Below, one piece after another: positions 10,087 through 10,155 of a stretch of 64,000 bases of DNA (position 1 is the first letter of the stretch; the number at the start of each line of letters is the position of its first letter). A program made the translations under genes and the position numbers. The notes under the pieces were generated by a model, which saw only the letters and a program-made list of their open reading frames with translations, had not been told where the DNA came from and searched no databases. The stretch is from Armatimonadota bacterium (GTDB taxonomy: Bacteria > Armatimonadota > Fimbriimonadia > Fimbriimonadales > Fimbriimonadaceae): positions 893,858 to 957,857 of the forward strand of contig JAFDWR010000001.1 of the NCBI GenBank assembly GCA_018268355.1, in the 5' to 3' direction.

Positions 10087-10155
10087 GGTGCGGGTCGCGC
10101 CCGAAGCCTCGCCCTCGGCGTCGCAGACGCGACGCCTCCGCCCACGACCCGCACC
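10087..10155. repeat. Palindromic element copy A (69 bp), between ligA and csd
   Basis: Outer arms GGTGCGGGTCG (10087-10097) and CGACCCGCACC (10145-10155) pair perfectly. An inner hairpin GGCGTCGC-AGAC-GCGACGCC lies at 10117-10136. Between them are boxes also found in the copy at 51419-51490: GAAGCCTCGCCCTCG on the left and CTCCGCCC on the right. The arms of the two copies differ at three positions and each change is compensated. It fills most of the 113-base divergent intergenic region. It may be a mobile palindromic repeat or a structured RNA. Confidence 0.65.

Follow-up and report, generated by a model that had tools for sequence, protein, structure and literature searches.

Bacteria commonly carry short dispersed palindromes, and RAYT transposases explain the best studied among them. 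The Rickettsia palindromic elements (RPE) are also palindromic dispersed repeats, some of which are located in frame inside genes. A third kind of site, the integron attC, is a folded single strand that combines conserved boxes with variable but complementary parts, and that has its recombination boxes in the stem. With respect to the REP/REPIN palindromes, the RAYT transposases are their accepted movers, and the REP sequences of a REPIN have been described as strongly conserved (PMC3116915). Here we analysed a window, that is, a whole stretch of 64,000 nucleotides from an Armatimonadota bacterium, which contains two related palindromes, copies A and B. Our results suggest that both are probably copies of a mobile DNA palindrome, which is short and non-autonomous.

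The elements of this family are organised as an outer arm (~8-14 bp), box 1, a variable inner hairpin, box 2 and a complementary outer arm. Copy A has the layout GGTGCGGGTCG-CGCCCGAAGCCTCGCCCTCG-GCGTCGCAGACGCGACGC-CTCCGCCC-A-CGACCCGCACC, with arms of 11 bp, and copy B the layout GCGCGGACCG-GCCCGAGCCTCGCCCTCG-inner hairpin-CTCCGCCC-T-CGGTCCGCGC, with arms of 10 bp (Table 1). The original prediction stated that the two copies share both boxes at matching places and that their arms differ in a compensated manner. Both statements were confirmed in the sequence, the arm differences consisting of three pairs (T-A/C-G, G-C/A-T and T-A/C-G), each of them compensated. The pattern GCCTCGCCCTCG-N15..45-CTCCGCCC occurs twice in the whole window and was found in none of 100 dinucleotide-shuffled versions of it. 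These shuffles, together with slid and shuffled pairing controls, rule out a chance origin of A and B. Note that the covariance model that matches both copies had copy A in its training set, while copy B was left out. As single-stranded DNA, copy A had on either strand a better fold than all of its 200 shuffles (z -3.9 and -4.1), and the fold of copy B was less clear-cut against its shuffles (z -2.0 and -3.6). A 23-bp inverted repeat whose halves are separated by 3 nt (AAACAGAAGGCCCCTGCCGCGCG...) is also present in the window, at 46552-46600, and is apparently no kin of the A/B family.

Table 1. Coordinates in the window of copies A and B, their parts and the genes around them.
Feature	Position	Strand	Basis and remarks
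ligA, NAD-dependent DNA ligase	8058..10064	-	Pfam, gene call; 22 bp between its start codon and copy A
Copy A, arm to arm	10087..10155	+	Sequence; covariance-model match 10088-10154, E 4e-11
Copy A left outer arm, GGTGCGGGTCG	10087..10097	+	Full pairing with 10145-10155
Copy A box 1, CGCCCGAAGCCTCGCCCTCG	10098..10117	+	Consensus over 125 copies
Variable inner hairpin of copy A, GCGTCGC-AGAC-GCGACGC	10118..10135	+	Sequence, fold
Copy A box 2, CTCCGCCC	10136..10143	+	Consensus
Copy A right outer arm, CGACCCGCACC	10145..10155	+	Sequence, fold
NifS-like class-V aminotransferase	10178..11293	+	Pfam, gene call; 22 bp between its start codon and copy A
Two-domain M16 peptidase-like gene, with copy B in frame in the linker between its halves	50306-52657		ORF, Pfam M16, homologue alignment
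Copy B, arm to arm	51419..51490	+	Covariance-model match, E 4.4e-6
Copy B box 1 core, GCCTCGCCCTCG	51435..51446	+	Two-box pattern search
Copy B box 2, CTCCGCCC	51472..51479	+	Two-box pattern search

Copy A sits between the divergent ligA and NifS-like genes, with 22 bp on either side. Neither sigma-70-like nor terminator-like sites were detected at copy A, and a search of 15 relatives did not recover its ligA-nifS neighbourhood. With respect to copy B, alignment of the M16 homologues revealed that their linkers are variable and of roughly similar length, and a clean insertion was not seen at this position; thus, copy B is a candidate insertion only.

The genome to which the window belongs comprises 2.70 Mb in 7 contigs, and the genome-wide statistics were drawn from searches and from stretches of it. 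Matches to AGCCTCGCCCTCG with one mismatch led to more elements in this genome, with the same boxes and other arms. A first covariance model, built from six elements of this genome with copy B excluded, produced 53 matches up to E 1, 41 of which were below 0.001. A second, broader model produced at least 61 matches at E <=0.01; since 150 of 3107 candidates were scored, the copy numbers given for this genome are minima. Covariance-model searches, of the kind suggested in the original prediction, thus found dozens of further copies in the genome. Among 52 of them we counted 24 distinct arms, and the same inner hairpins recur with many different arms. The copies often follow one to several tandem 45-nt ‘Y’ units (GCTGTCCCCG-N19/20-GCGTGCTWTGGGGCAG), and in many cases a direct copy of the local arm stands before the Y unit, bringing the whole to 63-66 nt. 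Loci with Y units include L024, L025, L044, L045, L046, L054, L062, L063 and L065; the Y repeat was not found in the loci of other genomes, and copies A and B are without it.

Other arrangements were observed in individual loci. At L027 (~1390-1424), a perfect palindrome made of arms only (AGGTTCAACCCCGCCCTCGGGCGGGGTTGAACCT) lies near a full copy and has perhaps lost its interior. Loci L014, L079 and L082 contain a sister repeat (e.g. GCGCCTCCCCGAGGCCACACCCTCCCTCGCTGCGCTCGGGCTGCGCCTCGGCGC), which is element-like and has a different second box. In L051, just outside 1501-1558 and on the reverse strand, a tandem CCCATGTCTCTGCCGGTCATCAC adjoins a copy with the same arm.

Next, we searched for the element in other genomes. 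A search of 291 Armatimonadota genomes matched 14, all of them from the window's family and distributed in 6 genera, so that the element is missing from most genera of this family; the named carriers in it are Fimbriimonadaceae. The pattern scan of the GTDB collection identified at least 103 stretches. Among the matches listed, paired arms were seen in three rumen MAGs titled Rickettsiales and in Armatimonadetes/Fimbriimonadaceae records (SZAS-8, Prado032, labscale reactor MAG7, Uphvl-Ar1, bin.224_sub, UBA2391 and BC.035). The last two coincide, in contig positions and in sequence, with genomes assigned to the window's family. The other stretches listed, mostly from GC-rich actinobacteria and proteobacteria, had arms that were not well paired and look like chance matches. 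The three rumen MAGs, the only ones to match among 175 genomes of their order, had 75, 80 and 97 matches in about 0.9, 0.8 and 1.0 Mb, respectively. Their contigs have a GC content of ~0.39-0.41, and that of the elements in them is mostly 0.65-0.74. Carriage by phages or plasmids was also considered and rejected, as the three viral pattern matches had no paired arms, and blastn gave no match in plasmids or phages. A literature search found no paper on such repeats, so this palindrome family is apparently undescribed in the literature searched.

The rumen copies served to define the unit that is dispersed. In 35 of these copies the information was ~2 bits within TGTTGCGC...GCGCAACA and mostly 0.1-0.6 outside, where the flanks are AT-rich and unrelated, with a weak T/A enrichment beside the arms. 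Since the similarity stops at the arm ends, the dispersed unit runs from arm to arm. The lengths of the rumen elements cluster at 79-82, 91-93, 105-107 and 117, in steps of ~13 nt through the inner part, and nested hairpins were seen in some copies (L107, among the rumen loci L260-L316). A target-site duplication was not evident beside the 35 copies, which had no clean empty site for comparison. As the arms differ wholesale from locus to locus, they could have been copied from the target site. This possibility was discarded, because within recent subfamilies many loci share one arm (CCCCTGTCTC in the Armatimonadota bacterium genome, TGTTGCGC in the rumen MAGs); thus, the arms travel with the element. 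In the Armatimonadota bacterium genome, 41 of the 43 copies that could be placed were intergenic (gene calls on both sides, made with a simple gene finder), and the orientations of the copies relative to the neighbouring genes were balanced (9 ++, 12 --, 10 +- and 10 -+).

The consensus of 125 copies was GCCCG(A)NGCC[AT][CA]NCCCTCG for box 1 and CTCCGCCC for box 2, both nearly invariant in three groups, a near-invariance that is partly imposed by the search pattern. By contrast with these fixed boxes, the stems vary and remain paired. In the alignment of 49 distinct copies the outer arms paired in 95.4% of the cells, so the arms of the further copies do pair as those of A and B, and double changes were seen in 10 of 10 arm pairs. 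For the whole structure, pairing reached 87% of the cells versus 38-46% when the partners were slid by 1-3 columns, and the observed covariation score was reached by none of 500 shuffles. The inner hairpin, which ranges from a 3-base loop to tens of bases, is self-complementary as a rule. Box 1 could itself form a short hairpin (CGAGG...CCTCG) in many rumen copies; since this is inconsistent in the Armatimonadota bacterium genome, a three-way junction is only a possibility.

We then compared copies located at the same locus in related genomes. In one genus, three element sites were common to two or three species. In these orthologous copies the boxes stay, the free positions change and pairing is kept, although conservation of the boxes is partly ascertained, since the copies were found via their boxes. 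At one site the inner hairpin had been replaced as a whole and still paired, and one arm pair had changed from T-A to C-G. One of the orthologous copies is found, in three species, immediately upstream of the gene for a YchF-type GTPase. At a fourth site, a sister species had lost 39 bp of the interior between GCC repeats, with the arms kept. Insertion of the core into a ready-made palindrome was considered here; as the arms-only site (L287) retains the first part of box 1, deletion is likelier. Homology between related genomes ended at or near the element in several comparisons (L276/L314, L277/L100 and L111/L176), and the location of copies at rearrangement or synteny breakpoints is consistent with recombination between copies. 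The flanks of 12 sites were searched in nine genomes and gave no clean empty site; two sites differed without being clean, one by several hundred bp including a Y1 gene and another by a 1-kb gene. Note that the copies at orthologous loci are old, so they do not speak for current mobility.

Some of these results could point to a structured cis-acting RNA (a 5' or 3' UTR element, an attenuator or a processing hairpin) selected for its RNA fold: the stems are paired with many double changes, copies persist at orthologous intergenic sites, including that of the YchF-type GTPase gene, and copy A is close to two start codons. An RNA helix, however, is expected to favour G.T over A.C. Since the pairing alignment had been fitted to the structure, the count was redone without it: the boxes were simply searched for flanks that pair, which yielded 136 copies. 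Of the 1551 arm pairs obtained, 1473 were Watson-Crick, 10 G.T, 15 A.C and 53 other, and G.T was not favoured over A.C on either strand. As G.T and A.C are about equally rare, the stems look kept as DNA palindromes and not as RNA helices. Also against a cis-acting RNA, upstream, downstream, divergent and convergent positions are all unpreferred, copy A has no terminator- or promoter-like signal, 75-97 copies are present in genomes of ~1 Mb, and no Rfam 15 family reached its gathering score in the window, the sole weak match being a chance lncRNA match. We therefore consider an RNA element unlikely. The selection on the folded form that the original prediction put forward holds in that pairing is kept, but RNA structure is disfavoured and a DNA palindrome is favoured.

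The family could also be a passive repeat, produced by recombination, slippage or template switching with no dedicated enzyme, its arms being complementary via hairpin-templated repair. The tandem arm-Y units and the reassorted arms and inner hairpins of the Armatimonadota bacterium genome, the copies at synteny breakpoints and the internal deletion between short repeats would all fit such an origin. However, the sharp arm-to-arm ends of the 35 rumen copies in unrelated flanks, as well as the spread between distant bacterial groups, are hard to obtain without a mover, and this makes a passive origin quite improbable.

Finally, that the family is a REP/REPIN moved by a RAYT (Y1 HUH transposase) seems very improbable: the copies are extragenic high-copy palindromes, some arranged as inverted doublets 68-116 bp apart in the Armatimonadota bacterium genome, and one copy of Uphvl-Ar1 (G167; L126/L274/L317; contig positions 447815-448244) has the start of a Y1 gene at a distance of ~50 bp, but PF01797 is absent from the Armatimonadota bacterium genome and from 14 of the 16 other carriers, including the rumen MAGs, where copies are most numerous. 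Two sister species are without about 550-650 bp at this Uphvl-Ar1 site. Since the Y1 gene is absent elsewhere, the adjacency was taken as a coincidence, worth a second look.

The reading that we prefer is that of a mobile DNA palindrome. The alternative of a mobile palindrome family, also raised in the original prediction, is well supported by the many copies, their sharp ends and unrelated flanks, and their presence in two distant bacterial groups. Movement would take place at the DNA level, the probable substrate being a single-stranded or extruded hairpin, which may be recognised by a putative enzyme acting in trans. Such an enzyme would read the boxes and would need a paired stem, whatever its sequence. 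Pairing of the stem may be kept by this requirement, by hairpin-templated correction (arm copied from arm) or by both. More tentatively, we propose that the mover reads the two boxes and the pairing and is not a Y1 transposase, that the stems are thereby free for wholesale replacement, and that the element crossed between Armatimonadota and Alphaproteobacteria. The search for movers covered Y1 transposases, and no autonomous partner element was identified. Counting against a mobile element, the long persistence with intact boxes could mean a host function.

What makes the family of interest is a density of ~1 copy per 10 kb in genomes of ~1 Mb without a detectable RAYT, with some 20 positions that do not vary between the two distant groups, and stems that are exchanged yet paired. 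If the element moves, a mover that recognises hairpin shape and boxes exists, and the family naturally documents how complementarity between the arms of DNA palindromes is maintained.

How does this element compare with the known systems? Prokaryotic MITEs (PMC10969869) and fungal mitochondrial double-hairpin elements (e.g. PMC7218506) are also small, non-autonomous, hairpin-forming dispersed DNA. In our element, the arms of which differ between copies, fixed terminal inverted repeats in common with an autonomous partner were not observed, and target-site duplication was not seen in the 35 rumen copies. As occurs with attC, conserved boxes are combined with variable but complementary parts in a folded single strand; here, however, the fixed boxes separate one variable stem from the other, and neither cassette arrays nor an integrase were seen. 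The likeness to RPE in general features includes a comparable length and, although this is suggestive only, abundance in MAGs labelled Rickettsiales. Copy B may recall the RPE located in frame inside genes, being in frame in a variable linker, with no clean insertion seen among the homologues. On the other hand, the MAGs labelled Rickettsiales come from rumen bacteria, and their contigs have ~40% GC, well below that of the GC-rich element (~0.65-0.74). As in REP, BIME and REPIN, the element is short, extragenic and palindromic, is present in tens to hundreds of copies per genome with a patchy distribution, and occurs as singlets and some inverted doublets: with the strict pattern, 3 inverted pairs less than 400 bp apart were found in ~53 kb of copy-rich stretches, and A, B and most rumen units are singlets. 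It differs from them in having a double hairpin of larger size, whose stems are separated by two fixed boxes, in stems that vary wholesale while pairing, and in the presence of a RAYT (PF01797) in only 2 of 17 carriers. The best reading is therefore a non-autonomous mobile palindromic element that resembles REP/REPIN or the Rickettsia palindromic elements. It belongs to a known general kind, and the behaviour of its stems is unusual.
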